Part shown: one piece after another, positions 30,619-50,672 of the stretch
How positions within the stretch are numbered: the first letter of the stretch is position 1
Layout: each line of letters begins with the position of its first letter
NCBI RefSeq assembly: GCF_025127995.1
Contig: NZ_JAHLYP010000053.1
Span: 1-50,672, forward strand
Origin: Synechococcus sp. CS-1332
Lineage (GTDB): Bacteria; Cyanobacteriota; Cyanobacteriia; PCC-6307; Cyanobiaceae
Direction: 5' to 3'
DNA length: 50,672 nucleotides
Position numbers and translations under genes: made by a program
Notes under the pieces: generated by a model
What the model was told of the DNA's origin: nothing
What the model saw: only the letters and a program-made list of their open reading frames with translations
The model's database searches: none

Positions 30619-31510
30619 GGTCGGTGAACTGGAAGTGAAACCCCTGAGCCAGCAGGCGATCGGGCCTCACCTGTTGCCCTTCGAGCACCACCTTGGCGCC
30701 ATCGCCGAGCAGCAGTTGCAACAGGGGGCCCGGCACGGGCAGCAGGCTGGGCCGGCCCAGGTCGCGGCCGAGGGTGGAGGCGAAGATCGCCATGCGGGTG
30801 GGCTCAGGGGCCACGGCGTTGTAGGGGCCGGCGTACGAGGCGTCCTCCAGGGCGGTGGCGATCAGCCGGCAGAGATCGTGGCGCTGGATCCAGCTCATCC
30901 ATTGCTGGCCGCTGCCCACCGGCCCGCCGAACCCGGCCCGGAAGATGGGCAGCATCTTGCCGAGGGCACCGCCGTCGGGGCCGATGACGATGCCGATCCG
31001 CAACACCACAACGCGGCAGGCTTCGGGGGCGACCTGGGTGGCGGCTTCCCAGCGGGCGCAGAGCCGGCCGAGGAAATCGTCGCCCGGCGGGCTGGCCTCC
31101 GTGAAGCAGCCCTCCAGGCTGGTGCCGTAGTAGCCCACCGCCGATCCGCTCACCAGCACCGAGGGAGGCTTGGCCAGGTTCGCCATCGCCCGCACCAGCT
31201 GGGCCGTCGTGACCAGCCGGCTGTCGAGCAGCCGCTGGCGATAAGTGGGCGTCCAGCGCTGGTCGGCGATCGACTCACCGGCCAGGTTGACAACCCCATC
31301 GGCCGCTGCCAACGCCTCAAGCAACGGGGTCTGGAGCCAGCTGGCCGGATCAGCCAGATCGAGGCAGAGGTTGGTGATCCTGGGATCGGCCGCCTCGCTG
31401 TCCGGCCGGGGCCGCCGGCTCACCAGGGTCAGCTGGTGGCCGAGGTTGAGCAGGAACGGCACCAGCTCCCGACCGACGAAACCCGTGCATCCGAGCAGAA
31501 GCAATCGCAT
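30575..31510 (-). CDS. TIGR01777 family SDR-like oxidoreductase
   Basis: This 311-residue protein is an NAD(P)-binding epimerase-like protein with DUF1731 at its C-terminus. The motifs are LLLGCTGFVGREL at the N-terminus, DGVVNLAGESIADQRW, LVSGSAVGYYG with the YxxxK-type replacement typical of the family, and the DUF1731 segment near GRPSLLPVPGPLLQLLLGD. In plastids a homologue (GC1/SulA-like) affects division, but a function here is not established. The start ATG is at 31510, divergent from ndhO with a 77-nt spacer. Confidence 0.87.
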   Translation of the reverse strand: MRLLLLGCTGFVGRELVPFLLNLGHQLTLVSRRPRPDSEAADPRITNLCLDLADPASWLQTPLLEALAAADGVVNLAGESIADQRWTPTYRQRLLDSRLVTTAQLVRAMANLAKPPSVLVSGSAVGYYGTSLEGCFTEASPPGDDFLGRLCARWEAATQVAPEACRVVVLRIGIVIGPDGGALGKMLPIFRAGFGGPVGSGQQWMSWIQRHDLCRLIATALEDASYAGPYNAVAPEPTRMAIFASTLGRDLGRPSLLPVPGPLLQLLLGDGAKVVLEGQQVRPDRLLAQGFHFQFTDLSAALAAATSPERR

Positions 31511-31587
31511 GCCCACAGGTTCATCGCAGTCCTGTTCCGAGGTTAGGTTCCGCCGGCCCTAACCTGGGCCGACCGTTCCTCCGCACG

Positions 31588-34646: not shown

Positions 34647-35324
34647 CTAGAGCGCCAGCCGGCGCCGTTCCTCCTTCAGCCGGCTGCGGCGCTGGCGGGC
34701 CTCACGCAGCATCTCCTTGCCGTCATGGAGGTAGCTGTCCACGTAGCCCATGGTGTAGCGCTCCAGCTCCACCAGGGCATCCTGCACCTGGCTGAGGCAG
34801 TGGTAAAGGCTGAGGCCAAACCCCCGTGCCACCGCTGGGCAGGCCCGGGAGCGGTAGAGGGCCTCCACCTTCTCCATCCGTGAGCGGCTCTGCTCGAGAA
34901 AGGAACAGAAGGCCTCCATCAGGTCGTCGTCGTAGGGATCAGCCGCCAGGGAGCGCAACTGGGCCGGGAAAGGATTGATCACCTGGCCGATCAACCGGTC
35001 GATCGGCACATACACCTGCTGGAGCCAGCCCAGCAGCTCCTCGTCGCTGGCCGCCCCTGCGCCCCGGCCCGGGCCTGAACCATGTCCACCGGGGCGCGGC
35101 GGAGCCACCACCCCAAGCCCGGCGCCGTGGTCGTAGTGGCGGCGACGGTCCCGATCCCGGAGCACTTCCCAGGCGGCATTGAGGGCCAGGATCGTGCATT
35201 GATCGCCTCCGGCATCAGGGTGGTGCCGTTTGACGAGGGCTCGGTAGGCGGCCTTGATCTCGGCGAGGGTGGCCCCGGGGGGAACCCCGAGGGTGGCGTA
35301 GTGGTCGGCTGGGGTCCTGGCCAT
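34647..35324 (-). CDS. J-domain (DnaJ-like) protein
   Basis: This 225-residue protein starts with a J domain (about 6-68) containing the essential HPD motif in KRHHPDAGGD, and then a Gly-rich linker and a helical C-terminal region of about 130 residues not found in canonical DnaJ. Such proteins recruit an Hsp70 (DnaK) to a particular client. The client is unknown. The ATG at 35324 is clear. Confidence 0.88.
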   Translation of the reverse strand: MARTPADHYATLGVPPGATLAEIKAAYRALVKRHHPDAGGDQCTILALNAAWEVLRDRDRRRHYDHGAGLGVVAPPRPGGHGSGPGRGAGAASDEELLGWLQQVYVPIDRLIGQVINPFPAQLRSLAADPYDDDLMEAFCSFLEQSRSRMEKVEALYRSRACPAVARGFGLSLYHCLSQVQDALVELERYTMGYVDSYLHDGKEMLREARQRRSRLKEERRRLAL

Positions 35325-35479: not shown

Positions 35480-37252
35480 TCAGAACTTGAACCGGGTCGA
35501 GACGAAGCCGCCAAACACGTTGCTGGACTGGCCGATGGTGGTGAACTGGCCGTTGGGCTTGCTCAGGAAGAACAGCGTTGGGGTCACGCTGATGGCGTCG
35601 GTGACCTGGAAGTTGTACCACCACTCCCAGGCAAAGTTGCCGTCCTGAGGGGTCTCGCCGTTGCGCAGCGAGGTGGCGAAAACCGGCTGACCGACGGCCA
35701 TGCCGGCCTGGTTGCCCTTGATGAACACATCGGACCACTGCAGTCCGACGCTCCAGGACTGGCTGGCGCCCCGGTTGGTCGACTGGTTGAAGGTGGGAAC
35801 CTGGTCGAAGCCCGTGGGGACGTTGAACGTGGTGGCGCCTACACGAACCGACCGGGTGAGGGGGTTCAGGCTGGGCTGGGTGAGGGCGTTGTAGCCCCAG
35901 CCCAGGTTGATCGAGGGGATCCAGCCGCTGTTCTTCGGCTGCCAGGCGGCCGTCAAAGCGAAGTTGTTCGAGTAGGAGGCGCTGCTGTTGAAATCGCCTG
36001 CACCAACGAAGTTGTTGTTGATGTTGGAGCAGTCGACCGCTGGCTGGGCAAAAGAACTGCCACGGCGGAAGTTCTGGTTGCACTGCAGGTAGCTCCAGGC
36101 GAAGGCCGTGCGCCACTGCTTGCCGACTAGGGCCAGCTGGGTGGTGAAGGTGCCGGCGCTGCGCTCGGTGAACAGGCCGCCCTGGTTCGGGTTGCCGTTG
36201 TCGCCATTGGGGGCGACGTACATGGTGGAGGCAGCGAAGTAGGGCTTGCCCTTCTTGACGTTCTGCTTCCAGACCAGGCCGAAACCGGCACCGGTGGCCT
36301 TGTTGTAGGTGCCAGGAGCACCCCAGAGTGAAAATACGTCGAGCAGGTCAGGCTTGTAGAACCAGGGCGTGACAGCGAGAGATTCCGTGTTCCTGACCCT
36401 GGCACCGAGGAAGACGGTCAGATCCCTGCCGATCGGGAACTTGTAGTAAAGACGATCGAGATTGACGACGTTGGCGCCACCGGTGGGAGCAAAGGCCCGA
36501 TCCAGGGCCATCAGGTTGTAGGGCTGGCCGTTAAAGGGGCTGTTGTTGAAGTTGCCGCTGCGCAGGCGGGTGTACAGCAGGTCCTTGCCAGTAAAGCTGG
36601 TGAGGAAATTGAGGCGGACGTCGTAGTTGAAGACAGCGCCGCCCCAGTTGCGCCGGTTGCTGTTGGGGAAGGCGTTGGCGGCAGCGGCCGGAACACCGAG
36701 GGCCGGGTTGGGCAGGGTCTGGTTGCCACCGAAGCTGTTGGCGCCGATCACGAAGACCGTGTCACCCTGAAGCCTGGTGGTAGTGGAGAACTGGGTGGCT
36801 TCCAGCTCACCCACCTTGGCCTCCAGGCCATCCACGCGGCCGCGCAGCACGGCGAGTTCCTTCTCGAACTCGTCCATCAGGCGCTTGAGCTCGTCGGTCA
36901 CCTCGGTGATCCGGTCGAGGCAGGCGTTCAGCAGGGCCGCCGCTTCGTAGCGGGTCATGGCCTGGCCGCCCTTGAAGGTGCCGTTCGGATAGCCGGCGAC
37001 GCAGCCGTAACGCTCGACCAGGTTGGAGAGCGCCTGGAAGGCCCAATCGGTGGGCTTGACGTCGGAAAACTGGTTGACGCTCGTGACCTGGTTCTGGGCT
37101 TCCCAGGCCTTGAAGCTGTCGATGTTCTGCTGCTCCATGTAGGTGGAGATCTCCGCCCTCTGGGAGGGGGAGATCTCACTGGCGGAAGCGGCAAGCGGCG
37201 AAAGCAGCCCAAGGGCTACCGGCGCCAGCAGAAGTTGCTGGAAGGGTTTCAT
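35480..37252 (-). CDS. SLH-domain porin (SomA/iron-uptake porin type), copy 1
   Basis: This 590-residue outer-membrane protein has a signal peptide (about 1-24), an SLH domain (VNQFSDVKPTDWAFQALSNL, then YPNGTFKGGQAMTRYEAAALL) that anchors it to cell-wall polymer, a coiled coil (TDELKRLMDEFEKELAVLRGRVDGLEAKVGELE pattern, about 120-150), and a C-terminal OprB-like beta-barrel ending in a terminal Phe (TRFKF), a common signal for outer-membrane insertion. Such proteins admit small ions and nutrients through the cyanobacterial outer membrane. ATG 37252. It has its own terminator and lies 3' of a close paralogue. Confidence 0.93.
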   Translation of the reverse strand: MKPFQQLLLAPVALGLLSPLAASASEISPSQRAEISTYMEQQNIDSFKAWEAQNQVTSVNQFSDVKPTDWAFQALSNLVERYGCVAGYPNGTFKGGQAMTRYEAAALLNACLDRITEVTDELKRLMDEFEKELAVLRGRVDGLEAKVGELEATQFSTTTRLQGDTVFVIGANSFGGNQTLPNPALGVPAAAANAFPNSNRRNWGGAVFNYDVRLNFLTSFTGKDLLYTRLRSGNFNNSPFNGQPYNLMALDRAFAPTGGANVVNLDRLYYKFPIGRDLTVFLGARVRNTESLAVTPWFYKPDLLDVFSLWGAPGTYNKATGAGFGLVWKQNVKKGKPYFAASTMYVAPNGDNGNPNQGGLFTERSAGTFTTQLALVGKQWRTAFAWSYLQCNQNFRRGSSFAQPAVDCSNINNNFVGAGDFNSSASYSNNFALTAAWQPKNSGWIPSINLGWGYNALTQPSLNPLTRSVRVGATTFNVPTGFDQVPTFNQSTNRGASQSWSVGLQWSDVFIKGNQAGMAVGQPVFATSLRNGETPQDGNFAWEWWYNFQVTDAISVTPTLFFLSKPNGQFTTIGQSSNVFGGFVSTRFKF

Positions 37253-37455: not shown

Positions 37456-39198
37456 TCAGAACTTGAAGGTGGTCTTGATCAGGCCGCCAAAGTTGTTGAA
37501 CTCGGAGCCGCTGTTGGGCAGGCCGCCGATGTTCTTGGAGATCTGACCGAGGGGGGCGCTCAGGTAGTAGAGAGCCGGGGTCACGCTGATGTTGTCGGTG
37601 ACCTGGAACTTGTACCACCACTCCCAGGCGTAGTTGCCATCGGCGATGGTGTTGGCGGAGAGAATACCGGGCAGCGGGGTGCCACGGGTGACTGAGGTCA
37701 GGAACGTGGGCTGACCGACCGCCATGCCGGCGGAGTTGCCCTTGATGAACACATCGGACCACTGCAGACCGACGTACCAGGACTGGCTGGTGGCCTGGGT
37801 GAGGCCGACACCGGGGGTGGTGACCAGATCCGTGGCACCGTTGGTGAACAGACCGTTGTAGTTGCTGGTGTTGATGCCCCAGCCGCCGCTGATCGAGGGG
37901 ATCCAACCGGAGTTGGTTGGCGACCAGTAGGCGCTGATGCCCACCGAGTTGGTGGAATCGGCGTTGGTCTGGAGGATGGTCGCCAGAGGGGTGCCGTTGC
38001 CGGTGTAGAGACCCGTGCCACCCGAAGAGTAGGTGTAAGCCGCCGCGATGCCGTAGTTGGCACCGCTGTAGGCCACCTGAACCGTGCCGGTCTGGGCGGA
38101 GCAATCGTTGCCAATACCGCCGCAAGTGGCGAAGTCGGTGCTGGGGGCGCCATTGCCGGCATTGGCCGACACGTAGTTGGCACTGATGCTGAAGCCTCCG
38201 CTCTTCCACCACAGACCACCACCACCACCGAGGTTGAGGCTGTAGGTGCCGGGGGCACCGGCGTAGGTGAAGATGTCAAGGATGGTGTCAGCCGGGTAGG
38301 CGCTGGGCCACACGGCGAGCATGTCGTCCTGGCGGACCCGGGGACCGATGGTGGCGGTGAAGCCGGAGCCGATCGGGAACTGGTAGAACAGCCGGTTGAT
38401 CTCGACCATGTTCGGACCGGCAGGACTCTCAAATCCAGCTTCCAGGGCGTTTAGGCCGACCACGGGCCCCCCGAAGGGGCTATTGCCGAAGTTGCCGGCG
38501 CGCATGCGGGTGCGCAGCAGATCCTTGCCGGTGAAGCTGGTGTCGAAGTCGATGCGCAGGTCGTAGTTGAAGACCGTGGCGCCCTGCTGGCGGCGAGCCT
38601 GGTTGGCCCAGGTGTTGGGCACAAAGCCCACAAGGGCTGCATTGGGACCGAAGGCACCCGGGACCAGGGCCGGGAAGGTGGTGAAGGCTGCCGCCAGGGG
38701 GCTCACCCGAGCGTTGCCGCCGAAGCTGTTGGCACCGATCACGAAAGCGGCGGTTCCCTTGAGCTTGGTGGTGGTGGAGAACTGGGTTGCCTCAAGCTCA
38801 CCCACCTTGGCCTCCAGGCCATCCACGCGGCCGCGCAGCACGGCGAGTTCCTTCTCGAACTCGGCCATCAGCCGCTTGAGCTCGTCGGTCACCTCGGTGA
38901 TCCGGTCGAGGCAGGCATTCAGCAGGGCCGCCGCTTCATAGCGGGTCATGGCCTGGCCGCCTTTGTAGGTGCCGTTCGGGTAGCCGGCGACGCAGCCGTA
39001 GCGCTCGATCAGGTTCGAGAGGGCCTGGAAGGCCCAGTCGGTCGGCTTGACGTCGGAAAACTGGTTGATGCTGGTGACTTGCTCCTCGGCGGCGTACTTG
39101 TTGACGCCGTCGATGTTGAGCTCAGCTGCCTGGACCGCCACGGGGGCGAGCAGGCCGAGGGCTGCGGGAGCAACCAGCAGTTGCTGGAAGAGTTTCAT
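37456..39198 (-). CDS. SLH-domain porin (SomA/iron-uptake porin type), copy 2
   Basis: This 580-residue paralogue of the neighbouring porin has the same layout: signal peptide (1-24), SLH domain (INQFSDVKPTDWAFQALSNL), coiled coil and OprB-like barrel ending LIKTTFKF. The first 150 residues and parts of the barrel are almost identical to copy 1 at DNA level, while the intervening loops differ widely. The ATG at 39198 is taken, although the frame stays open upstream to 39345. The gene diverges from the glycan-assembly operon with a 128-nt spacer. Confidence 0.93.
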   Translation of the reverse strand: MKLFQQLLVAPAALGLLAPVAVQAAELNIDGVNKYAAEEQVTSINQFSDVKPTDWAFQALSNLIERYGCVAGYPNGTYKGGQAMTRYEAAALLNACLDRITEVTDELKRLMAEFEKELAVLRGRVDGLEAKVGELEATQFSTTTKLKGTAAFVIGANSFGGNARVSPLAAAFTTFPALVPGAFGPNAALVGFVPNTWANQARRQQGATVFNYDLRIDFDTSFTGKDLLRTRMRAGNFGNSPFGGPVVGLNALEAGFESPAGPNMVEINRLFYQFPIGSGFTATIGPRVRQDDMLAVWPSAYPADTILDIFTYAGAPGTYSLNLGGGGGLWWKSGGFSISANYVSANAGNGAPSTDFATCGGIGNDCSAQTGTVQVAYSGANYGIAAAYTYSSGGTGLYTGNGTPLATILQTNADSTNSVGISAYWSPTNSGWIPSISGGWGINTSNYNGLFTNGATDLVTTPGVGLTQATSQSWYVGLQWSDVFIKGNSAGMAVGQPTFLTSVTRGTPLPGILSANTIADGNYAWEWWYKFQVTDNISVTPALYYLSAPLGQISKNIGGLPNSGSEFNNFGGLIKTTFKF

Positions 39199-39326: not shown

Positions 39327-40892
39327 ATGAAGGCCCTTTGGGCAACGTTGCCCTTCCTGCCCCTGCTTCTGACGGCGGCGCCGCGCAGCTTCCTGGCCCA
39401 CGACGAGGGCTACTACGCCCTGCAGGCCCGCTGGATCGCCCAGAGCGGCCAGTGGCTGGCTCCCCCTTGGTGGGACCAGGTGGTGTTCGATCGCACCATC
39501 GGCCTGCCCTGGCTGATCGCCGCGGCCTACCGGCTGTTGGGGGTGGGCCCCTGGGTGGCCCATGTGCCGTCGTTGGTCGCCGCCGTGGCCTCCCTGCTGC
39601 TCACGGCGGCCCTCGCCAGGCGCCTGCTGGGAGGTGAAGGAGTCGGCTGGCTCGCCGCGGCCGTGCTGGCGCTCACCCCCCTGTGGCTCGACTACGCCCA
39701 CCTGGCCAGCCAGGACATGCCGCTGCTGGCCCTGGAGCTGCTGGGCCTGCTGGCGCTGCTGCGGGCCGGCGACACCCCACAAAGGCACTGGACGCTACTG
39801 GCTGGCGCCTGGATCGGTCCGGCTGTCCTGATCAAGGGCTTCATGGTGGCGCTTCCCGTGCTGGCCCTGCTGCCCTTTGCCCTGCTGGAGCGGCGGCCCG
39901 TGCTGCGGCGACCCGCCTTCTGGCTCGGCCTCGCCCTCGGCTGGCTGCCGGTGGCGCTCTGGCTGGGCCTGAGCCTGCGGGAGCTTGGCCTGCCGGTGGT
40001 GGCGGGGCTGTGGCAGAAGCTGCACTACCTCTCGCAGAGCGATGTCTACAGCGCCGGTCCGCTCTATTACCTGTGGAACCTGCCGGCCAATACCTTTCCG
40101 TGGTGTCTGTTCGCCCTGGCGGGCTGGCGTGGCTGGCTGGGCACAGCGATGGACCGATCCAGGCGTCTGCTGTTGCTCCTCTATCCCCTGCTGATGCTGC
40201 TCCTGCTCAGCGCCTTCCGCACCAAGACCCCGTATTACGGACTTCAGCTCACCCCCTTTGTCGCCCTGGCGGCCACCGCCGGCCTGCGCTCCTGGAGCAG
40301 CGGAGGCCACAGGAGCGCCCGCTGGGCCAGCCTGGGCCTCGGTGGCCTGGGAATGGTCCTGCTGCTGGCGGCGGCGGTGGTGCTCTCGCCTGGGGCGCCG
40401 GCCGGACGTCTTGTCGCCAATGGGGTGGCCAGCCTCGCGCCGACACCAGAACAGTTCGCCCTGGCGGCGGGAGGCCTGGGCCTGGCCTGGGCCCTGGTGC
40501 CCTGGTGCCGCTCCAGCTCCCGCCGGCTGGGGGCCCTGCTGATCGGTCCCTGGCTGGCCCTGGTCCTGCTGGTGCAGGCCGGCCTGTTCACCGACAGAAG
40601 CCCCCTGCAGCGGCAGGCGCTGGCGCGCCCTGAGGCGGCGATGGCGCTGGCCGCCGGGCCCATCGCCGCCGCGGCCGGCGCCCCCCTCAGCGGTGAGGAG
40701 CACGCGGGGCTGATCCTGGTGGCCCTGGCCAGCCCCAGCCTGATACCCCGCATCGGAGCGGCGGAGCGGGTCCCCGCAGGGGAGCGGGTGTGGATCCGGC
40801 GCCAGGAGCTGCCGACCGGATGGCCCGTGCGGCTGCAGGCCCCCGAACTGGAGCCCTGGGTGCTGGCCGAAGCCTCAGGAGCGGGCCGATGA
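39327..40892 (+). CDS. GT39/ArnT-like membrane glycosyltransferase
   Basis: This 521-residue polytopic protein has about 11 membrane segments. A first-loop acidic pair in AHDEGYYA (D26-E27) matches the catalytic aspartate region of GT39/ArnT-type enzymes, which use polyprenyl-phosphate sugars and act on the outer face of the membrane. A RTKTPYYGLQLTPFVAL-type segment near residues 295-311 is also typical of the family. The ATG at 39327 starts the first hydrophobic segment. The last codon overlaps the next gene as ATGA, so it leads a coupled five-gene operon. Confidence 0.85.
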   Translation: MKALWATLPFLPLLLTAAPRSFLAHDEGYYALQARWIAQSGQWLAPPWWDQVVFDRTIGLPWLIAAAYRLLGVGPWVAHVPSLVAAVASLLLTAALARRLLGGEGVGWLAAAVLALTPLWLDYAHLASQDMPLLALELLGLLALLRAGDTPQRHWTLLAGAWIGPAVLIKGFMVALPVLALLPFALLERRPVLRRPAFWLGLALGWLPVALWLGLSLRELGLPVVAGLWQKLHYLSQSDVYSAGPLYYLWNLPANTFPWCLFALAGWRGWLGTAMDRSRRLLLLLYPLLMLLLLSAFRTKTPYYGLQLTPFVALAATAGLRSWSSGGHRSARWASLGLGGLGMVLLLAAAVVLSPGAPAGRLVANGVASLAPTPEQFALAAGGLGLAWALVPWCRSSSRRLGALLIGPWLALVLLVQAGLFTDRSPLQRQALARPEAAMALAAGPIAAAAGAPLSGEEHAGLILVALASPSLIPRIGAAERVPAGERVWIRRQELPTGWPVRLQAPELEPWVLAEASGAGR

Positions 40893-43339
40893 GGCTGGCG
40901 CGGAACCGGGACGGTTGGGTCCTGCTGGGGTTGTGGTTGGCGGGTGTTCTCCTGGATGTTTTGTGGCTGCAGCGCCACACCCAGCCGCCGGCCTGGGACC
41001 AGGGGGAACATCTCAGCCGCGCCCTGGGGGTCTGGCAGGTGCTGGGTGAGGCCGCGCCCTTCGACCCCTCCTGGTGGCAGCGGCTCTGGGCCGAGACCCC
41101 CACCTACCGGGGACCCTTCACCTATCTGGTGACGGCACCGGTGTTCAGCCTGCTCGGGCCCGGTTATGGCAGTGCGATTCTCTCCAACAGCCTGTTCCAG
41201 GCGCTGCTGCTGGGGAGCCTGTACGGCCTGGGTCGCCTGGCCCACAGCCGGGCCGCTGGCCTCTGGGCCGCCTTTCTCTGCGGCGTCTCCCCGGCCCTGC
41301 TCAACCAGCGCAGCGACTACCTGATCGATTTCAGCCTGACGGCCGTGCTCACAGCCACCTGGTGGCTGCTGAGCGTGCGGGTGCTGGCCCGCCCCCGGCA
41401 CCCGTGGCTCTGGAGTCTGGGGGGCGGCCTGGGGCTCGGGGCGGTCGTTCTGACCCGTCCGACCGGCCTGGTGATGCTGTGGCTGCCCCTGCTGGCGCTG
41501 GCCTGGATGGCCCTGGCGGCCCTGGTCCAGCGGGGCCGACCGGCCCGCCTGGGCGAGTCGCTGCTGGCGCTGGCTGCGGCGACGGCCGTGGCCTGGCCCT
41601 GGTGGAGCCAGAACTGGCTGACGATCCTCTCCACCGTCAACAAGGCCCGCCAGTGGGGGGTGCTGTATCAGGACGGGCTGGAGGCCAACACCCTGGCGGG
41701 CTGGCTGTTCTATCCCCGCCTGCTGCCCACGATGGCCGGGGCCGCCCTGGTGGCGGTGGTGGTGGCGGGAGGGTTGCTGAGCAGGTCGCTCCGCCGCAGC
41801 CCGCCACCCTCCCGGTGGCCGAAGCAGCGCCTCGCCTGGTGGCTGAGCTTTCCGCTTGGGGGCCTGCTGCTGGCCACCTTGATGAGCACCAAGGACTTCC
41901 GCTTCGTGCTGCCCCTGGTTCCCCAGCTGTGCCTCGGCCTGGGGATCCTTTTGGCCTCGGCCGCCGGTCGCTGGACGACCGGCTGGCGGCTGGCGGTGGT
42001 GGGAATCGGGGTGTGGGGCGCCCTGGCCAGCCAATTCGCCCTGGCGGCCAACCCCACCGGATTCCCGCCGCGGCCCCCCATCGCCGGTCCCCCCTGGCCC
42101 CTGGAGGCGATCGTTTCCACGATCCGGCAGCGCAGCCCGGAGCAGCTCTCCACCCTGGCGGTGCTGCCCGACAGCCAGGGGCTCAACGCCTTCAACCTCG
42201 ACGCCGAAGGTCGCCGTCAGAAGTTTCGCGTTGCCGCCCGCCAGACCGTGGCTCCCGTTGACCAGCTTGACGGGGACCTGGCCGGCTTCGACTGGTTCCT
42301 GCTCAAGGGGGGCGACCAGGGGGTGATGAGCGACGACCGCCAGGCCGCCCTCGATGGGATGGTGCGCCGTTCGCCGGCGTTCCAGGCCGCCGGGAGCTGG
42401 CCGCTGCCCGACGGCAGCAGCGCCGAGCTCTTCGAGCGGCGGCAGCTCAGCCTGGAGATGACCCCGGTGGCCTGCGGGGCGGATCCCAGCCTTCAGCTGG
42501 ACCTCAGCGTCGAACCCTCCTCCCCCCTGCGTCCGGGCAGCGAGGCGGTGCTGGTGAGCCGCCTGCGGGGGCCGGCGGCCGAGCTGCGGGACGGCCTGCT
42601 GCTGCTCGACTGGCGACCGGAAACCGCCGGCGCTGGCCTGCCGAGCTGGCGCCATGACCGCGGCATCGGCCAGGGGATGCTGCGCGTCGATTCTTCCGCC
42701 TGCCTGGAGGTCCGCGAACGCCTGGCCCTGGTGGTGCCGGCCGGGCTGCCCGACGGGACCTACCAGCTGCGGGCCCGCGCCCTTGACCGCCAAGGGCAGC
42801 CGCTGGCCCTGCGACGTTCACCGCTCCCGCTGACGGTGGCGGCCGATGGCGGCGGCGGAGACAGTGGGGCGCCCCCGAACCGCATCGACCAGCTGCTCGC
42901 GCTGGGGAGACTGCTCCGCGAGGGCGAGCTGGATCTGCTGTTCCGGCAGGTGGGACAGATCAACCAGCGCGATCCCCAGCAGACCTACCTGGCCCAGGGG
43001 GAGCGGCTGCTGCGGGCCCGGCTCCAGGAGACTCCCCCCGACGCCGGTGGGGGGGATCTTGAGGACCTCTATGGTCTGGCCCTGGCCCAGGCGCTGCAGC
43101 GGCACGCCGATGGGGCCGTCGACACCCTGCAGCGCATCGTGTCCCTCGAACCCAGCAATCCCCATGCCCTGATGGCCCTCGGCTTCGTCCAGCTCTACCG
43201 CTTCCACCCTGGCCAGGCCCAGGTGGCGCTCGATGCCGCCGCCCGGCTGGACCCCGGCAATCGCACCCTGCGGACACTGCGGGCTGTGGCCAGCGGCCTG
43301 CGGCTGGATGTGGCCGGCACCCTGGCGCTGCTGCGATGA
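40889..43339 (+). CDS. GT39-like membrane glycosyltransferase with C-terminal TPR-like region
   Basis: This 816-residue protein has about 11 membrane segments in its first 400 residues, with an acidic pair D37/E40 in PAWDQGEHL at the position of the GT39 active site. A soluble domain rich in beta-type sequence (about 400-650) is followed by two to three helical repeats of TPR character at the C-terminus (about 680-810, for example the NPHALMALGFVQLYRFHPG stretch). The domain order, membrane enzyme then large periplasmic part, is uncommon. It overlaps the upstream and downstream genes as ATGA on each side, suggesting that the products assemble together. Confidence 0.82.
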   Translation: MRLARNRDGWVLLGLWLAGVLLDVLWLQRHTQPPAWDQGEHLSRALGVWQVLGEAAPFDPSWWQRLWAETPTYRGPFTYLVTAPVFSLLGPGYGSAILSNSLFQALLLGSLYGLGRLAHSRAAGLWAAFLCGVSPALLNQRSDYLIDFSLTAVLTATWWLLSVRVLARPRHPWLWSLGGGLGLGAVVLTRPTGLVMLWLPLLALAWMALAALVQRGRPARLGESLLALAAATAVAWPWWSQNWLTILSTVNKARQWGVLYQDGLEANTLAGWLFYPRLLPTMAGAALVAVVVAGGLLSRSLRRSPPPSRWPKQRLAWWLSFPLGGLLLATLMSTKDFRFVLPLVPQLCLGLGILLASAAGRWTTGWRLAVVGIGVWGALASQFALAANPTGFPPRPPIAGPPWPLEAIVSTIRQRSPEQLSTLAVLPDSQGLNAFNLDAEGRRQKFRVAARQTVAPVDQLDGDLAGFDWFLLKGGDQGVMSDDRQAALDGMVRRSPAFQAAGSWPLPDGSSAELFERRQLSLEMTPVACGADPSLQLDLSVEPSSPLRPGSEAVLVSRLRGPAAELRDGLLLLDWRPETAGAGLPSWRHDRGIGQGMLRVDSSACLEVRERLALVVPAGLPDGTYQLRARALDRQGQPLALRRSPLPLTVAADGGGGDSGAPPNRIDQLLALGRLLREGELDLLFRQVGQINQRDPQQTYLAQGERLLRARLQETPPDAGGGDLEDLYGLALAQALQRHADGAVDTLQRIVSLEPSNPHALMALGFVQLYRFHPGQAQVALDAAARLDPGNRTLRTLRAVASGLRLDVAGTLALLR

Positions 43340-44739
43340 ACGGCACTCTTCAGCCCGAGGCCCTGCAACGGTTCCACCGACGCAACCGGGCCTACTACGA
43401 GGACCTGAACCGGCTGCATCAGCTGCTGGTCGCACCGGGCCTAAGGGTGCTCGAGATCGGTTGCGGCCTGGGCGATCTGCTGGCCGCCACCCACCCGAGC
43501 CACGGGGCTGGCATCGAGCGCGACCCCGCCATCGCCGCCGCCGCCCGGGCGGCCCATCCCAACCTGCGGATCGTCTGCGCCGAAGCGGCGGCCATCACCC
43601 CGGAGGCGATCGGAGAGAGCGAGCCGTTCGATGTGATCCTGCTGGCCAACACCCTCAACACCCTCGAAGACGTGCAAGGGGTGATCGAGCGGCTGGCGGC
43701 GTTCTGCCATGACCGCACCCGGCTGGTAGTGAGTTTCCACAACTGGCTGTGGCAGCCCCTGCTGAAGACGGCGGAAACCCTGGGTCTTCGCCAGCCCCAG
43801 CCGCCCGAGAGCTGGCTCACCCCCAGGGACGTGCAGAACCTGCTCGACCTGGCCGGCTGGGAGGTGCTCAAGCAGGGGCACCGCTGCCTGCTGCCGCGCC
43901 AGATTCCCGTGCTCGGCCCCCTGGCCAACCGCTGGCTGAGCCAGCTGCCTGTGCTCGAACAGTTCGGGCTCACCCACTGGCTCGTGGCCCGTCCCGCCAC
44001 CCCGGCCCAGCGCCGGCCCAGCGTCAGCGTGGTGATCCCGGCCCGCAACGAGGCGGGCAACATCGCCGCCGCCATCGACCGCATGCCCCTGCTGGGATCG
44101 GCCACCGAGGTGCTGTTCGTGGAGGGTCATTCCTCCGATGACACCTGGGCGGAGATCGAGCGGGTCTGCGCTGCGTACTGCGGCCCACTGCAGCTGCGGG
44201 CCCTGCGCCAGAGCGGCCGCGGCAAGGCGGACGCCGTCTGGTTGGGCTTCGATCAGGCCGAGGGGGACGTGCTGATGATCCTGGATGCGGATCTCACCGT
44301 GCGTCCCGAAGACCTGCCGCGGTTCTACAAGGCCCTGGCCGAGGGCCGGGGGGAGTTCGTCAACGGCTGCCGACTGGTGTATCCCCGCACCTGCGCCGCC
44401 ATGCCGCCACTGAACACGGCCGCCAACCGTTTCTTCGCCGCGGCCTTCTCCTGGCTGCTGCGCCAGCGGCTGAAGGACACCCTCTGCGGCACCAAAGTGA
44501 TCTGGAAGGCCGACTACGAGCGCCTCAAGGCCGGGCGCGCCTACTTCGGCGACTTCGACCCTTTCGGCGATTTCGACCTGCTCTTCGGTGCCTCCAAGCT
44601 GAACCTCAAAATCGTGGAGGTGCCGGTGCGGTACCAGGAACGCAGTTACGGCAGCTCCAACATCGCCCACGTGAAGGAGGGACTGATCCTGGCGCGGATG
44701 TGCCTCTACGCGGCCCAGAAGCTGCGTTTCACGCCGTGA
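43336..44739 (+). CDS. Methyltransferase-GT2 (Dpm1-like) fusion protein
   Basis: This 467-residue protein joins a class I SAM-dependent methyltransferase (1-215; motif I VLEIGCGLGDLL at about 38-49) to a GT2 domain (from about 229; SVVIPARNEAGNI, DxD D317-D319 in MILDADLTV, and the C-terminal SYGSSNI typical of polyprenyl-phosphate mannosyl/glucosyltransferases). The GT2 part probably makes the polyprenyl-phosphate sugar used by the two GT39-like enzymes upstream, and the methyltransferase may modify the sugar or lipid. It overlaps the gene before it by ATGA. Confidence 0.85.
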   Translation: MNGTLQPEALQRFHRRNRAYYEDLNRLHQLLVAPGLRVLEIGCGLGDLLAATHPSHGAGIERDPAIAAAARAAHPNLRIVCAEAAAITPEAIGESEPFDVILLANTLNTLEDVQGVIERLAAFCHDRTRLVVSFHNWLWQPLLKTAETLGLRQPQPPESWLTPRDVQNLLDLAGWEVLKQGHRCLLPRQIPVLGPLANRWLSQLPVLEQFGLTHWLVARPATPAQRRPSVSVVIPARNEAGNIAAAIDRMPLLGSATEVLFVEGHSSDDTWAEIERVCAAYCGPLQLRALRQSGRGKADAVWLGFDQAEGDVLMILDADLTVRPEDLPRFYKALAEGRGEFVNGCRLVYPRTCAAMPPLNTAANRFFAAAFSWLLRQRLKDTLCGTKVIWKADYERLKAGRAYFGDFDPFGDFDLLFGASKLNLKIVEVPVRYQERSYGSSNIAHVKEGLILARMCLYAAQKLRFTP

Positions 44740-44797
44740 GCGCCCAGGAGTGCGCCCCAAGTCCCCGTCGCCACCACAGGTGTCGCCGTCGCCGCTG

Positions 44798-45742
44798 ATG
44801 AAAAAGCGCTGGTTTCTTGGCCTGGTGGCGACCCTGGTGCTCTACCTGGGGCTCAGTTTCTGGTTCGGCTTCGCCAACGTGATGCGCTCCCTGTCGGCGC
44901 TGCCCTGGTGGTGCTGGGTCGTGGTGCCGGCGCTGGTGGTCCTGGGCTATCTGCTGCTGTTCCAGCGCTGGCAGTTCTATCTGCGGCAGCTGGGACACCC
45001 CCTGCCCTGGCGTCCCAGCGGCCAGATCTATGCCGCCGGCCTCTCGCTGGTGGCCGCGCCAGGTCGCAGCGGTGAGGCCCTGCGCGGGCTGTGGCTGCAG
45101 CGGCGCCACGGCATCCCGATGCAGGTCGGCGTCGGGGTGACCCTGGCGGAGCGGGTGACGGACCTGGCCGGGGCCCTGCTGGTGCTCGCCTGGGGGCTCG
45201 GGGGCCGCGTCCTACCGGCCCTGCTGGCTGGCGGGGGGACCCTGGCCATCGGCGCCTGGCTGCTAACCCACCCGGCGGCCCTGCGGCGCCTGGAGGCGTT
45301 CCTCGATCGGCTGCCGGCCCACCGGCGCTGGCGCGGACTGACCCGGCTGCTGCGGGAAGCCCTCGGGGCAGTGAGCCGGCTGCGCCGGCTGCTGCGGCCC
45401 TGGCCGCTGCTGGTGGGCACCGCCCTGGCCGCACTGGTGTGGCTGATCGAGGCGGCGGCGCTGATGGGCCTCTTTCTGACGCTGGGGGATCCCTTGGCCC
45501 TCACCCAGGCTGCCGTGATCCGCACGGCCATGGCCCTCGGTGGCGTCCTCTCCTTCCTGCCGGCGGGCGTCGGCACTGCAGAGGCCACGGCCATCGGCCT
45601 GGCGGTGGCCTTCGGTGTCGATCGGTCGGCGGCGCTGGCGGTCACCCTGGTGCTGCGGGTGTGCACTGTGCTGCTTCCCACCGCAGTGGGATTGCTGGTG
45701 CTGGCCCGCCACAGGGACGGTGGCGAGGGGGTGGGCGCTTGA
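44798..45742 (+). CDS. Lysylphosphatidylglycerol-synthase-TM-like / AglD-YbhN family protein
   Basis: This 314-residue integral membrane protein has about seven hydrophobic segments and belongs to the UPF0104 / lysylphosphatidylglycerol synthase TM family, recognised by SLVAAPGRSGEALRGLWL and, near the end, FLPAGVGTAEAT. Members include archaeal AglD and proteins proposed to move or modify lipid-linked sugars. I prefer ATG 44798 (MKKRW, start of the first helix); a GTG at 44750 directly after an AGGAG also lies in frame. Its stop overlaps the TTG start of the acyltransferase gene. Confidence 0.82.
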   Translation: MKKRWFLGLVATLVLYLGLSFWFGFANVMRSLSALPWWCWVVVPALVVLGYLLLFQRWQFYLRQLGHPLPWRPSGQIYAAGLSLVAAPGRSGEALRGLWLQRRHGIPMQVGVGVTLAERVTDLAGALLVLAWGLGGRVLPALLAGGGTLAIGAWLLTHPAALRRLEAFLDRLPAHRRWRGLTRLLREALGAVSRLRRLLRPWPLLVGTALAALVWLIEAAALMGLFLTLGDPLALTQAAVIRTAMALGGVLSFLPAGVGTAEATAIGLAVAFGVDRSAALAVTLVLRVCTVLLPTAVGLLVLARHRDGGEGVGA

Positions 45743-47811
45743 TCGAGGCGATTCGCTCTCCGGACTCCAAGGCCAGAGGCCGCGCTCCCGCCTCGCCCAG
45801 CGGCTACCGGCCCGAAATCGACGGCCTGCGGGCCCTGGCCGTGGTGGCGGTGATCCTCAACCACATCGATGAACGGCTCCTGCCCAGCGGCTATCTGGGG
45901 GTGGACGTCTTCTTCGTGATCTCGGGCTTCGTGATCACCGCCTCCCTGACCCGCCGCCCGGCCCGCTCCCTGGCCGATCTGCTGCTCGACTTCTACAGCC
46001 GCCGGCTGAAACGGCTCGTGCCGGCGCTGCTGCTCTTCGTGGTGGTGGTGGGTGTGCTGTCCTGCCTGGTGATCCCGCGCCCCCATACGGCCCTGCGCAC
46101 GGGGATCAGCGCCCTGTTCGGGTTCTCCAACGTCTACCTGCATGGGCAGGCCACCGACTACTTCGGCACCGCCACCAAACTCAACCCCTTCACCCACACC
46201 TGGTCGCTGGGGGTGGAGGAGCAGGTCTACCTCTTGTTCCCCCTTGTGGCCTGGCTGACGGGCTTCGCCCGCCCAGGAGCCGGTGGCCAACGGAACCTGT
46301 TCGCCGTCATGGGAGTGGCTTCGCTCGCTTCTCTGATCACCTTCGTTCAGCTCTACCCCAGCCAGCAGGCGGCCGCCTACTTCCTGATGCCGCCACGGCT
46401 CTGGGAGATGGGGGCCGGCTGCATGCTGTTCTGCGCCGGCGGCGTCTGGCCGGCGGCGGCCCGGGGGCTTGGCCGCGTGCCGCCTTTGGCGCCGGCCCTG
46501 GGCCTGGTGGGCGTGATGCTGCTGCCCCTGAGCTGGGCGATCCCGGCCACGGCCGCCGCCGTTGGCTTCACCACGGCGCTGATCGGCAGCCTGAGGGAGG
46601 GCACCGCCGCCTATCGCCTGTTCACCCTGCCGGCCCTGGTGGCCGTAGGTCTGATCTCCTATTCCCTCTACCTCTGGCACTGGGGCGTGCTGTCCCTAAG
46701 CCGCTGGACCATCGGCCTGCACTGGTGGTCGCTGCCATTCCAGGTCGCCCTGATCGTGATTCTTTCGCTGGCCTCCTACCGCTGGGTGGAGCAGCCCCTG
46801 AGGCAGGCCTCCTGGGCGCCTCGGCGGGGGGGAACAATCGCCATCGGGGTGGGCAGCCTGGCGGCCGGGGCGGGCCTGCTGATCGGGGTCGACAACCTGC
46901 CCCCGTTCAGCCTCTACGCCGGACGCAACCCGATCCCGGCGGGCATGGGGGTGGAATCGCTGGTCGATCCCTATCGGGTGGCCGGCGCCGCCGGGACCTG
47001 GCAAGGCGCACCCTGCGTCCTGGCCAAGGAGGCTGATGCGGACAAAACCATCCCCCTCGAGGCCTGCACCCTCGGGGACTTCGCCACGGCCCGCCATCGG
47101 GTGCTGGTGGTCGGCAATTCCTTCTCGGCCTCCTTCGCCGAAGCCTTCGACGACCTGGTGGCCAAAGACAACTTCGCCGTGACGATCACCTCGGCCTGGG
47201 CCGCCTCGCCGGTGGCCAACTTCGCCACCGTGGGCGGCGGTGGCCCTTTCGCCGCCATCAATCGGGCCTACTGGAACCGGGTGGTGCCGGAACTGGTCGA
47301 CCGGCTCTCCCCGGGCGACTGGGTCTTCCTGGTCAACGACATGGTGATGTTCTCGCCGCCCAGCCAAGGGCCTGGCAACCGGCTGATCCTGCAGACCCTC
47401 AGGGTCGGCCTCACCGACTTCTCGGCCAGCCTGGCGCGGCGCGGTGTGCGCCTCGCGGTGCTCAACGGGCTGCCCTTCGCGCGGGAGGCGAACTGCCATC
47501 CGGCCAGCGCCTTGCCCCAGTGGTTCTCGCCCTTCGGGGGTCCCTGTCTGATGCCGGGCCGGACGGAGTCCCTGCGCCGCCGCCAGCCTCTGGACGACCT
47601 GCTGACGCAGCTGGATAACCAGGGAACGCTGCAGGTGGTCGATCTGTTCGACCTCTTCTGCCCCGAAGGGGCCTGCACTTACCGCTCCAAGGGTGGGGCG
47701 ATTCTCTACCGGGACGAGCATTCCCATCCTTCGAAGCCAGCGGTGCGGCTCGCCGCCCAGGAGATTCGCCGGGTGCTGACGTCGGCGCCGAAAGCGCAAA
47801 GCCCGCCATAA
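45739..47811 (+). CDS. Acyltransferase-3 / SGNH fusion (OafA/OatA-like)
   Basis: This 690-residue protein has an N-terminal acyltransferase-3 domain of about ten membrane segments (GLRALAVVAVILNHI with the catalytic His42; SGYLGVDVFFVISGF) and a periplasmic SGNH-type domain from about 450. In that domain the usual GDSH box reads GNSF (G459-F462), so the serine is kept but the Asp and His of the box are not. A D-x-x-H-like DEHSH lies at 659-663. These proteins O-acetylate peptidoglycan, lipopolysaccharide or exopolysaccharides. The likely TTG start overlaps the upstream stop as TTGA. Confidence 0.87.
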   Translation: MIEAIRSPDSKARGRAPASPSGYRPEIDGLRALAVVAVILNHIDERLLPSGYLGVDVFFVISGFVITASLTRRPARSLADLLLDFYSRRLKRLVPALLLFVVVVGVLSCLVIPRPHTALRTGISALFGFSNVYLHGQATDYFGTATKLNPFTHTWSLGVEEQVYLLFPLVAWLTGFARPGAGGQRNLFAVMGVASLASLITFVQLYPSQQAAAYFLMPPRLWEMGAGCMLFCAGGVWPAAARGLGRVPPLAPALGLVGVMLLPLSWAIPATAAAVGFTTALIGSLREGTAAYRLFTLPALVAVGLISYSLYLWHWGVLSLSRWTIGLHWWSLPFQVALIVILSLASYRWVEQPLRQASWAPRRGGTIAIGVGSLAAGAGLLIGVDNLPPFSLYAGRNPIPAGMGVESLVDPYRVAGAAGTWQGAPCVLAKEADADKTIPLEACTLGDFATARHRVLVVGNSFSASFAEAFDDLVAKDNFAVTITSAWAASPVANFATVGGGGPFAAINRAYWNRVVPELVDRLSPGDWVFLVNDMVMFSPPSQGPGNRLILQTLRVGLTDFSASLARRGVRLAVLNGLPFAREANCHPASALPQWFSPFGGPCLMPGRTESLRRRQPLDDLLTQLDNQGTLQVVDLFDLFCPEGACTYRSKGGAILYRDEHSHPSKPAVRLAAQEIRRVLTSAPKAQSPP

Positions 47812-47855: not shown

Positions 47856-47907
47856 GCCCCCGAAACCAAAATCTCCAGATGAACCTGGGGACAACGGTTT
47901 CGGGGGC
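47856..47907. repeat. 12-bp inverted repeat with 28-nt loop
   Basis: GCCCCCGAAACC (47856-47867) and GGTTTCGGGGGC (47896-47907) are perfect reverse complements; the loop contains a further ATCT/AGAT mini-stem. No T-tract follows, so it is not a standard terminator. Confidence 0.75.
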
Positions 47908-48062: not shown

Positions 48063-48116
48063 GACGGCTTGGAAACGGTTTTCGGGGAAACCCCGAAACC
48101 GAAGCCTTGAGCCGTC
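48063..48116. repeat. Nested hairpin with CCCCGAAACC arm
   Basis: An inner stem CGGTTT(T)CGGGG / CCCCGAAACCG (48076-48101, one bulged T, AAA loop) lies within an outer stem GACGGCT / AGCCGTC (48063-48069, 48110-48116), with an alternative GGCTT/AAGCC pairing. The arm shares sequence with the hairpin at 47856-47907. Confidence 0.7.
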
Positions 48117-48398
48117 ACCACGCCACTGCTGACAGGACCCAGTGACTGTAACGACTTTTTGAACCTTGCCGCAGGCAACTCCTGCGGGGAGGTTCGGATG
48201 GCCTGGCAACACCCTGGCCAGAGAGATCTGCGTAGGAGAATTCTGGTACATCAGTACCTTCTTGGCACGCCACGACATCTGCGCCTTCACGGGTGGGCGG
48301 CATGGCAGAGGAATCGAAAGACATCAGTGCAAAGCTTTGACACTCATGTCAGGTAGGTTTCAGATCTCGTGGGGTGCCCCACCAGTCTCCCGGCTTTG

Positions 48399-50276
48399 AT
48401 GATGCCACCCGCCCTTACGTCCTTGGCCAGTCAACTGGCCGTCATTACTGTCTTCATACTCTTCAGTTTTGGACTGCTCGCAGCAACAAGGCTGAAGACG
48501 GGTGCCAGAGGCAGCACCAATAGCCAAAGCCGGAAGGTCCCAGAGGAGCGCAATGACGGCCTTGACCTTCTGGCCGGCCTCATCGCTTTTGGCGTGGTCT
48601 GCAACATCCTACTGATCCTGCCAGGGCTGATTGAACGTCTCACCGGATCGGGCGAACAGCCGATCCTGATGCTGCATCGATTCTGCAGCGGCCTCTCCAC
48701 GGCAGCCGTGCTGGTGGTGGCGCTGCTCGGATTCCTGGCCCTGATGCAAAGCAATCACTGGCCTGTGCCGAAGCCATTGCGTTCCATAACATCGCCTCTG
48801 GCCTCACGCTTCGGGACCGATGCCATCAACCCAATCAATGATGCCAGCCTGCGTGTGCTGTTCTTTGTGCCAGCCGTCTACCTTCTCTCCGTTCCCTACT
48901 TAGGACTGCAATATGATACTGGCCTTTATCATTTGCCGTCCGTACTTCATTTCCAAGCCTTCGGCCCTGAACTTGGACTGGCCAACTTTCATTTCAGCTT
49001 TGGATTTTTCAACCTGCAGCAGTTCGCCCAGGTCTCACTGCAGAATCTGAGCCCTTCAAGATTCATTCTCTCCCCGTCACTCAACCTCATTTTCCTGGAA
49101 GCCTTCATCCTCACGGTCGTCTCAAGCCTGGCATCAATTCAAAAGCCAGAGAAACCAAATGGATCGAGACAGACAACAACAAGGGCCCTGCTCTATCTTG
49201 CCACAGGCCTCCTCTTTGGGATTCAATCACTGAACTCACTGGTGTCATTTGATGCGGATTTTGCGGTATCAATGACAACGCTGATGCTGGTCTACATCGT
49301 CTACTTCTGCGGCCCTGGCCTGCGACGTGATCAGGCTCTGGCTCTTTCCCTTTTTCTGCCGCTGCTGAAGCTCTCAGGAGCCTTGGGCCTTGCCCTGATT
49401 CTCTTGCTGGAGTTGCTGCATCAGAGGCCCGCGATCAAGAACTATCGCCTGCGAGGAGCCTTTCGCGTCGTCGGCCTAGCGCTGCGCACTCTCAAAATGA
49501 AAAGCACCTTGGCAGGCGCCACCCTGTTGGCCTACGCAGGCATGCTGGCGACGAACCTGATCACGTCCGGATATCTTCTCTTCCCCCTTCCCATGACTGG
49601 ACCGTGGGGAGAACAGGCTGTTCCCTTGGCCTCAACCAAGTTCATCAGAAGTGCACTGGTCACAAATTATGCTCGTTTCGATGACAACATATCGCTGTCG
49701 GCAAGCGTGTATCCGAAACATCTGACGCTATCCGATTGGCTGCCAAGATTTCTATCTACATCCAGAGGGCAGCTGATGACGTTCTGGATCGTTTCCGCCT
49801 TGGTCCTATTTCTCGTCCTCGCTGCAATGACGATCGCAAGCAGGCGAAAGATTCGTGAACAAAAGTTGATGCATCTCAGTGCCTGCCTCCTACCTGTGAC
49901 GGTACTGGCGCTGTTGGCATTACCTCCCAATCCACGGTTCTTTCCTTGGATTGGCTCTCTGATCGGCTTTGAGTTCACCGAGCTGGTGATTTTCTATCCA
50001 CTGATTTCCTTGCTGACATCCACCCTACTGATGTCATTGCTGAGCGTGCGCTTACAGCGATCGCTTCTCAAGGCGACCGGTCCTGAACAGTACTCCATCA
50101 GGTCGCTTTCGAAAAATCAACTTTATGGTTGGCACTCAAGACACGAATCTGCTGCTGACTCCAAGGGAATTCAGGTCCGCTCTCCCAAAAAAGACAAATG
50201 CTGGTCGATTCAGCCTCCATGCACCCCCTACCTTCCATCCGCTGAAGGAAAATCCAAAAAGACGACAATGAACTGA
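48399..50276 (+). CDS. LIC_10190-like polytopic membrane protein
   Basis: This 625-residue protein has at least 12 hydrophobic segments. The segment YDTGLYHLPSVLHFQAFG followed by GLANFHFSFGFFN resembles, as I recall it, the LIC_10190 family of membrane proteins of unknown function (DTxLYHLQ... and GLxNLHxRxGFN), which are often near surface polysaccharide genes. It may be a glycosyltransferase-C-like or polymerase-type protein. Its composition is less GC-rich than its neighbours, with more TCA, CTT and AGA-type codons, which fits horizontal acquisition. The start could be GTG 48369, ATG 48399 or ATG 48402. Confidence 0.72.
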   Translation: MMPPALTSLASQLAVITVFILFSFGLLAATRLKTGARGSTNSQSRKVPEERNDGLDLLAGLIAFGVVCNILLILPGLIERLTGSGEQPILMLHRFCSGLSTAAVLVVALLGFLALMQSNHWPVPKPLRSITSPLASRFGTDAINPINDASLRVLFFVPAVYLLSVPYLGLQYDTGLYHLPSVLHFQAFGPELGLANFHFSFGFFNLQQFAQVSLQNLSPSRFILSPSLNLIFLEAFILTVVSSLASIQKPEKPNGSRQTTTRALLYLATGLLFGIQSLNSLVSFDADFAVSMTTLMLVYIVYFCGPGLRRDQALALSLFLPLLKLSGALGLALILLLELLHQRPAIKNYRLRGAFRVVGLALRTLKMKSTLAGATLLAYAGMLATNLITSGYLLFPLPMTGPWGEQAVPLASTKFIRSALVTNYARFDDNISLSASVYPKHLTLSDWLPRFLSTSRGQLMTFWIVSALVLFLVLAAMTIASRRKIREQKLMHLSACLLPVTVLALLALPPNPRFFPWIGSLIGFEFTELVIFYPLISLLTSTLLMSLLSVRLQRSLLKATGPEQYSIRSLSKNQLYGWHSRHESAADSKGIQVRSPKKDKCWSIQPPCTPYLPSAEGKSKKTTMN

Positions 50277-50404: not shown

Positions 50405-50672
50405 TCAGAGCGCGTTGCCGCGGGGCAGAACCTCTTCAGGGAAGATGAAGTTTTCGTGCGGCTGGTCGGCGGGGGCCATCCAGGCACGCAGACCTTCGTT
50501 GAGCAGGATGTTCTTGGTGTAGAACGTTTCAAATTCAGGATCCTCCGCGGCGCGGATCTCCTGGCTCACAAAGTCATAGGCCCGCAGGTTGAGGGCCAGA
50601 CCGATGATGCCGATGCTGCTGGTCCACAGACCCATCACCGGCACGAACAGCATGAAGAAGTGCAGCCAGCGC
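50405..50672 (-). CDS. psbD: Photosystem II D2 protein PsbD, C-terminal part (cut by window edge)
   Basis: The last 88 residues of D2 are visible: [36 protein letters not shown] and the ending [18 protein letters not shown]2 is one of the two photosystem II reaction-centre proteins in the thylakoid. In most cyanobacteria a psbD copy overlaps psbC, whereas here a terminator follows 36 nt after the stop, so this is likely a second, monocistronic psbD copy, of the kind usually induced by high light. The 5' part lies beyond position 50672. Confidence 0.95.

Follow-up and report, generated by a model that had tools for sequence, protein, structure and literature searches.

A predicted polyprenyl-phosphate-sugar cassette in an exchangeable slot between SLH porin genes and psbD of Synechococcus sp. 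CS-1332

INTRODUCTION

What do five closely packed genes for sugar transfer do beside the porin genes of a picocyanobacterium, and do they act in a common route? The question is raised by positions 39327-47811 of a 50,672-nucleotide stretch of DNA from Synechococcus sp. CS-1332 (NZ_JAHLYP010000053.1; contig C36 in our numbering), which was analysed as a whole and is referred to below as the window; the host genome amounts to 2.97 Mb in 57 contigs and is 99.4% complete. A first-pass annotation had proposed that the five genes constitute a complete route of sugar transfer and acylation with an envelope target. We report here that the site they occupy, between SLH porin genes and the photosystem II gene psbD, holds one of two alternative gene sets in related genomes, and we put at roughly two in three the probability that the unit is an exchangeable cassette, designated type I, that uses a polyprenyl-phosphate sugar to decorate an envelope glycan.

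As primary producers picocyanobacteria are abundant, and phages may use the sugars of their envelope as receptors; to our knowledge, few genes have been assigned to these sugars. One established logic for envelope decoration is that of the Gtr systems (GtrA-GtrB-GtrC), in which a polyprenyl-phosphate-sugar synthase, a flippase and an outer-face transferase are combined. A literature search of titles and abstract openings, covering few subscription papers, gave no account of the present locus or of its exchange among the matches listed.

RESULTS

An exchangeable slot

The unit consists of five open reading frames, all on the + strand and in the order given by the first-pass annotation. GTa (39327-40892, 521 aa) is a membrane glycosyltransferase predicted to be of the ArnT-type GT39 class, and GTb (40889-43339, 816 aa) a membrane protein with a predicted GT-C fold, a periplasmic domain and C-terminal TPR repeats. 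They are followed by MT-GT2 (43336-44739, 467 aa), a class I S-adenosylmethionine (SAM)-dependent methyltransferase fused to a putative Dpm1-type GT2 glycosyltransferase, by FLIP (44750-45742), a flippase-like membrane protein of the PF03706/TIGR00374 type that starts at either GTG 44750 or ATG 44798, and by AT3-SGNH (45739-47811, TTG start), an acyltransferase that we regard as accessory. Three of the four junctions overlap when read from the sequence (ATGA at 40889, ATGA at 43336 and TTGA at 45739), as had been claimed, and the junction between MT-GT2 and FLIP has a gap of 10 or 58 bases according to the start that is used.

Across loci the slot shows a common order of ThyD-like gene, DnaJ-domain gene, SLH porins, cassette and a convergent psbD. 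Scanning of named genomes yielded 38 loci, and 76 were taken into the slot survey, from which L046, a short archaeal match, was omitted; both flanks (porin and psbD) are present in 24, and loci that do not show the two, L012, L019 and L041 among them, fall outside this group. When the 24 double-flanked loci were tested for mixtures by tblastn at 1e-10, 16 were found to be type I, eight type II and none mixed. Type I comprises GTa, MT-GT2 and FLIP, with GTb in 15 of the 16, and type II a GTb-like gene, accompanied in five of the eight by GTw, a GT-C-like protein with an RDFDE motif that is often encoded beside the GTb-like gene and is remotely akin to GTa (hhalign probability 91, E 1e-6, from a profile of two sequences). 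Because the loci were retrieved by MT-GT2 or GTb-like queries the ratio of 16:8 is not a frequency, although the lack of mixtures is still informative. The 14 GTb-like loci that were retrieved (L097-L108, L115 and L116) include 12 with an SLH porin in the region; at L102-L104, where the stretch contains no psbD, the GTb-like gene and GTw lie on opposite sides of the porins. Type I loci of Prochlorococcus have no porin in the stretches examined. We conclude that in these loci the porin-psbD slot is occupied by a swappable gene set of either type I or type II.

The two sets are also separated between genomes. In a family sample of 251 genomes, with orthologs taken at E<=1e-60 for GTa, E<=1e-79 for GTb and E<=1e-40 for GTw, no genome has both GTa (49 genomes) and GTw (124 genomes), and none has both a GTb ortholog (34 genomes) and GTw. 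MT-GT2 and GTw meet in a single genome, G148, where the porin slot is taken by a GTb-like gene and MT-GT2-FLIP lies at another site. Two genera in which the two kinds of genome coexist argue against pure kinship as the cause: in g1, MT-GT2, GTa and GTb are present in 11 genomes and GTw alone in five, with G148 in addition, and in g9 the counts are seven and seven, one further genome having neither. A tree of two left-flank proteins from 15 loci needs at least three changes of type, its deep branches being poorly supported.

This exclusion holds for GTa proper (E<=1e-60) and not for every GTa-like protein. Strict exclusion of all GTa-like proteins by GTw was dropped, because of 33 weaker matches (E 1e-20 to 1e-35; 24-31% identity, save two fragments at 42 and 46%) 24 share a genome with GTw. 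At five places (G078:C1, G039:C1, G016:C14, G234:C10 and G174:C1) such a distant GTa-like protein (27-31%) is encoded within 10 kb of GTw, and it may represent a third type II component. A GT2-GtrA pair was considered as the partner that MT-GT2 replaces and was rejected, being present in 133 of the 251 genomes, type I genomes and the host included.

Genes that travel together

Full-length MT-GT2 is found in 37 of the family genomes, of which 35 have GTa and 31 a GTb ortholog, and this co-occurrence argues that the cassette arrangement is not due to chance. GTa, GTb, MT-GT2 and FLIP stand together at loci of Cyanobium, Vulcanococcus and Synechococcus, the exceptions being a group that lacks GTb (L031, L034 and L041, for example) and short contigs. 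Named Prochlorococcus loci carry varying sets: GTa, MT-GT2 and FLIP at L036 and L037; GTa, MT-GT2 and GTb at L038 and L039; GTa and MT-GT2 as far as the contig end at L040; and MT-GT2 with FLIP only at L044. Three complete-looking small genomes (L093-L095) have GTa-MT-GT2-FLIP, with GTb next to these genes in two. Outside family f1, 14 MT-GT2 loci were compared: GTb-MT-GT2-FLIP is seen at one and GTa-MT-GT2 at two, and at another a distant match to GTa lies on the opposite strand; some have GT87 or weak PMT_2 neighbours. The families of GTa, MT-GT2 and FLIP thus recur together and are not scattered through unrelated contexts. The description of the unit as a complete route stands in so far as a Dpm1-type GT2, a flippase-like protein and an ArnT-type GT39 protein are repeatedly associated, and fails in that no sugar-nucleotide gene is present in the five-gene unit.

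The cassette proteins

The first-pass annotation had called both membrane transferases GT39-like, which is borne out for GTa. It scores 76.3 bits against PF13231 (4.2e-21; cut-off 26.1), and a search of the PDB with a profile of 19 orthologs matched ArnT (5ezm) at 1.2e-15, the only other entry returned being a receptor chain at E 0.055. The structural model (pLDDT 86.6) is closest to ArnT 5f15 (VIA Z 31.9 over 483 residues, rmsd 3.7); ArnT entries rank at Z 31.9 and 31.5, and the best entry other than ArnT at 24.8. Acidic positions are conserved among the aligned orthologs (D26 in 19/19, E27 in 18/19 and D55 in 19/19), and in the profile alignment D26 and D55 line up with acidic residues of ArnT (D and E) that we take to be catalytic. 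The sole member without the glutamate is at L024 (6007-7614), which has HDA in place of HDE. Profile and model alike point to an ArnT-type GT39 enzyme, and one that is not ArnT proper, the lipid A aminoarabinose transferase, since the score against the ArnT NCBIfam equivalog is 37.3 bits with a cut-off of 567.

The same assignment could not be kept for GTb. Its PF13231 score (19.5 bits) is below the cut-off, its first loop has WDQ in 15 of 15 sequences and is without the DE pair, and comparison of its profile with that of GTa revealed no kinship (hhalign probability 2.9). A model of moderate confidence (pLDDT 71.8) resembles STT3 8age (VIA Z 21.4) and ArnT 5f15 (19.6) and ends in a TPR tail, so that GTb appears GT-C-like by predicted fold only and is not clearly GT39. 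The wider GTb family, of about 700 aa, has matches at 1e-20 in 155 of the 251 genomes, mostly in one copy per genome.

Both domains of the proposed methyltransferase-GT2 fusion were recovered in MT-GT2, with scores of 70.4 bits for PF00535 (cut-off 23.3) and 42.9 for PF13489 (cut-off 27). Residues G42, G44 and G46 of the GxGxG motif I and D317 and D319 of the DxD motif are invariant in all 12 sequences aligned. The nearest solved relatives are the dolichol-phosphate-mannose synthase PfDPMS (9.9e-19) and ArnC-type proteins (2.3e-13), and among NCBIfam entries the GT2 half matches AglJ best, at 90.9 bits, far below the cut-off of 325. The GT2 half is thus nearest to polyprenyl-phosphate-sugar synthases and is predicted to be of the Dpm1 type, as had been suggested. 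MT-GT2 is the most conserved part of the cassette at orthologous family loci (65-97% identity, as against 32-90% for GTa). At 1e-30 it has 50 matches in the family sample, the 37 of full length and 13 in genus g17, which are partial (28-30% identity); the SAM-binding half is missing from the g17 protein in all three loci aligned. Six g17 loci (L109-L114) were retrieved, from small genomes that are probably Prochlorococcus-like; GTa adjoins the half-less GT2 in four, a fifth has a GTa fragment, and at L109 a radical-SAM gene follows the pair. In a phylum sample of 386 genomes MT-GT2 is found in 23 at 1e-60. Outside the cyanobacteria it occurs in a metagenome-assembled genome of the Syntrophales (49%) and in 16 Azospirillum plasmid records, in 15 of which as listed the fusion is 48-51% identical.

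FLIP, which the annotation had likened to AglD/YbhN, passes the cut-offs of both PF03706 (144.3 bits; cut-off 33.4) and TIGR00374 (79.7; 43.2), and falls below those of the MprF (31.4 of 600) and GlcN-PG flippase (32.7 of 320) equivalogs. A PF03706-type gene, recognized by its annotated product name ('lysylphosphatidylglycerol synthase transmembrane domain'), lies directly upstream of MT-GT2 in seven of the ten Azospirillum plasmid regions viewed from the 16 records, and is absent there in three. The recurrence of the same flippase-like family in these regions indicates that MT-GT2 and FLIP are a recurrent pair.

The acyltransferase and SGNH domains of the fifth protein are both present (PF01757, 90.1 bits, cut-off 31; PF19040, 73.7, cut-off 27), and a search of solved structures with its sequence gave no match. 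Orthologs of at least 86% identity are limited to nine of the 251 genomes, the host included, all of genus g1, and one of these orthologs contains an in-frame stop; AT3 proteins of lower similarity are frequent (65 of 251 genomes at 1e-40). At 12 close loci the gene is near full length in six, cut by the contig end in one, interrupted by an in-frame stop in one, reduced to a deletion remnant in two and absent from two. Since it is broken or absent in five of the 12, AT3-SGNH was ruled out as a core part, and the acylation step that had been included in the proposed route is not a part of its core. The decaying genes are those of L014 (12413-12896), L016 (12413-14431) and L017 (12407-13415); deletion has left only remnants of two, and the other is interrupted by an in-frame stop. 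The host genome encodes a second AT3-SGNH-like protein, 35% identical, at G000:C33:87909-89921.

Flanking genes and other features

The left flank of the slot, all on the - strand, comprises a ThyD-like short-chain dehydrogenase/reductase gene (30578-31516), a DnaJ-domain gene (34647-35324) and two adjacent SLH porin genes. The ThyD-like product scores 319.9 bits against TIGR01777 (cut-off 207.35) and 322.2 against the ThyD family NF050030, which is under the cut-off of 400. The porin gene nearest the cassette (37456-39198) matches NF033921 (por_somb) at 1.9e-84; its frame is open to 39345, and the probable start is MKLFQQ at 39198. The second porin gene lies at 35480-37252. On the right, the 3' part of psbD, encoding photosystem II D2 (50405-50671, - strand), is cut by the contig end and is 99% identical to psbD of L099, itself identified by TIGR01152. 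An apparent conserved gene of the right flank, cluster c22, turned out to be a frame antisense to psbD.

Between the acyltransferase gene and psbD is a gene for a 635-aa protein with multiple transmembrane segments (48369-50276, + strand), uncoupled from the operon. It belongs to no Pfam family, is weakly LIC_10190-like (NF047510, 66.9 bits, under the cut-off of 100) and has a homolog in L009 only (74%; tblastn at 1e-8, 75 loci). Directly 3' of the acyltransferase gene a pair of inverted repeats can be made out by eye, their arms related to each other and GGTTTCGGGG-like: the first has arms at 47856-47867 and 47896-47907 and a 28-base loop, and the second (48077-48100) is compact; they are perhaps the operon end or a repeat element. 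A promoter scan found none, and terminator-like sites were near chance (five, against 3.2 expected).

DISCUSSION

The interpretation that we favour, at the probability of about two in three given above, is that of a type I cassette that decorates an envelope glycan by way of a polyprenyl-phosphate sugar. The GT2 half of MT-GT2 would join a sugar to polyprenyl phosphate on the cytoplasmic side of the membrane, as its family and motifs suggest, and the methyltransferase half would probably methylate the sugar or its donor, this being the weakest step of the scheme. FLIP may then move the lipid-linked sugar across the membrane, a role that is consistent with its family and with its repeated pairing with MT-GT2, and GTa and GTb, from their predicted folds, could transfer the sugar to outside acceptors. 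In some strains only, AT3-SGNH could add an O-acyl group.

Several observations weigh against this interpretation. The GTa cut-off was chosen at a gap in the match list after the list had been viewed, and the exclusion depends on it; the Fisher probabilities of the exclusion (4e-11 to 1e-17) ignore kinship; and a single type I clade is only weakly rejected on the flank tree (p-AU 0.047, a borderline value). Our confidence is lowered by the 24 weaker GTa-like matches that sit in GTw genomes, five of them close to GTw itself. Co-variation of the porins was considered and rejected, in that their SLH domains do not split by cassette type. GTb lacks the DE pair, has only a moderate model and is missing from six of the 37 MT-GT2 genomes; L038 and L039 show no FLIP, and L044 and L035 no GTa; and at ten of the 14 MT-GT2 loci outside f1 no GTa, GTb or FLIP was recognized. 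The want of a sugar-nucleotide gene in the unit belongs here also.

Modification of lipid A or the lipopolysaccharide core, with MT-GT2 making a polyprenyl-phosphate sugar that GTa and GTb place on lipid A in the manner of Rgt or ArnT, much as RgtE together with RgtD and RgtF reportedly handles galacturonic acid in rhizobia, is a possible alternative that we would entertain only tentatively. GTa is nearest to ArnT; lipid A of marine Synechococcus has galacturonic acid and no phosphate, in the available part of a review (PMC4515613), and another paper, so far as its available text goes, describes RgtD, RgtF and RgtE as the 4'-galacturonic acid, 1-galacturonic acid and bactoprenyl-phosphate-galacturonic acid transferases (PMC7663294). 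The Rgt route as described has no place for a methyltransferase, however, no lipid A gene was recognized among the neighbours scanned, and because MT-GT2 is patchy, with full-length copies in 37 of 251 genomes, the cassette is unlikely to be a universal lipid A step; galacturonosylation of lipid A was downgraded as the default reading for the same reason. The cassette resembles the ArnC/ArnT system for undecaprenyl-phosphate-aminoarabinose and the RgtE/RgtD systems in joining a Dpm1-type GT2 to an ArnT-type GT-C enzyme whose donor is, or in the cassette would be, a polyprenyl-phosphate sugar, and differs from them in the methyltransferase fused to the GT2, the second GT-C protein with its TPR tail, the PF03706 protein, the lack of a recognized lipid A gene nearby and the exchange at a fixed locus.

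Rather doubtful, in our view, is that the sugar is destined for a peptidoglycan-linked polysaccharide to which the nearby porins attach through their SLH domains. The slot adjoins SLH porins in all 24 double-flanked loci, the porin flank having been a criterion of their selection, and most of the GTb-like loci have a porin too; some cyanobacteria have OmpM-type proteins whose SLH domains bind pyruvylated wall polymers in vitro, according to the available part of the source (PMC10628300). Against this, the SLH domains are not grouped by cassette type, and porin adjacency may be mere inherited position. The porin link, from which the first-pass annotation drew an envelope target, is upheld to the extent that the position is conserved in Cyanobium and Synechococcus; the Prochlorococcus type I genes show no porin in the stretches examined, and so adjacency alone does not name the target. 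It seems unlikely that the enzymes are PMT-like and O-glycosylate proteins such as the porins, the TPR repeats and periplasmic tail of GTb binding the protein: GTb is at least as close to the STT3 protein glycosyltransferases as to ArnT, but GTa is nearest to a lipid A enzyme, and a GT-C fold does not reveal the acceptor. That these are unrelated envelope genes, brought together by accident and sharing no route, is very improbable, for despite an acyltransferase gene that comes and goes and some genomes with MT-GT2 minus the others nearby, the genes overlap, MT-GT2 is accompanied by GTa almost throughout the family sample and similar sets are found at other sites in Prochlorococcus.

The enzyme classes are individually known; the novelty lies in how they are combined and, most of all, in an exchangeable slot at a fixed site. 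Like the Gtr cassettes for O-antigen modification as they are generally understood, type I is a small exchangeable set, and unlike them it has a PF03706 protein instead of GtrA and no phage genes among the neighbours scanned. The fusion is the same as that named 'bifunctional class I SAM-dependent methyltransferase/glycosyltransferase family 2 protein' by NCBI, here coupled to GT-C enzymes; that name was met as annotation only, no literature search having been aimed at it. With respect to the archaeal AglJ and dolichyl-phosphate hexose transferases, of which AglJ is the NCBIfam entry that the GT2 half matches best, the cassette adds a methyltransferase half.

A more far-reaching proposal, which we regard as speculative and not likely, is that the slot is a surface-type switch: GT-C cassettes would be swapped between species at a fixed site, changing an envelope sugar and thereby setting the attachment of phages or grazers, with the type I MT-GT2 making a methylated polyprenyl-phosphate sugar, so that methylation would occur at the level of the donor rather than on the completed glycan. 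Variation in glycosyltransferases and porins of an Antarctic Synechococcus-like cyanobacterium has been inferred to be an answer to viruses, in the available part of that study (PMC9716671), and this would fit the exchange of a surface trait.

In summary, a fixed slot that holds one or the other of two gene sets yields a simple prediction that can be compared between strains of one genus, and the presence of the MT-GT2 fusion from Prochlorococcus to Azospirillum makes donor-level methylation of sugars a testable idea.

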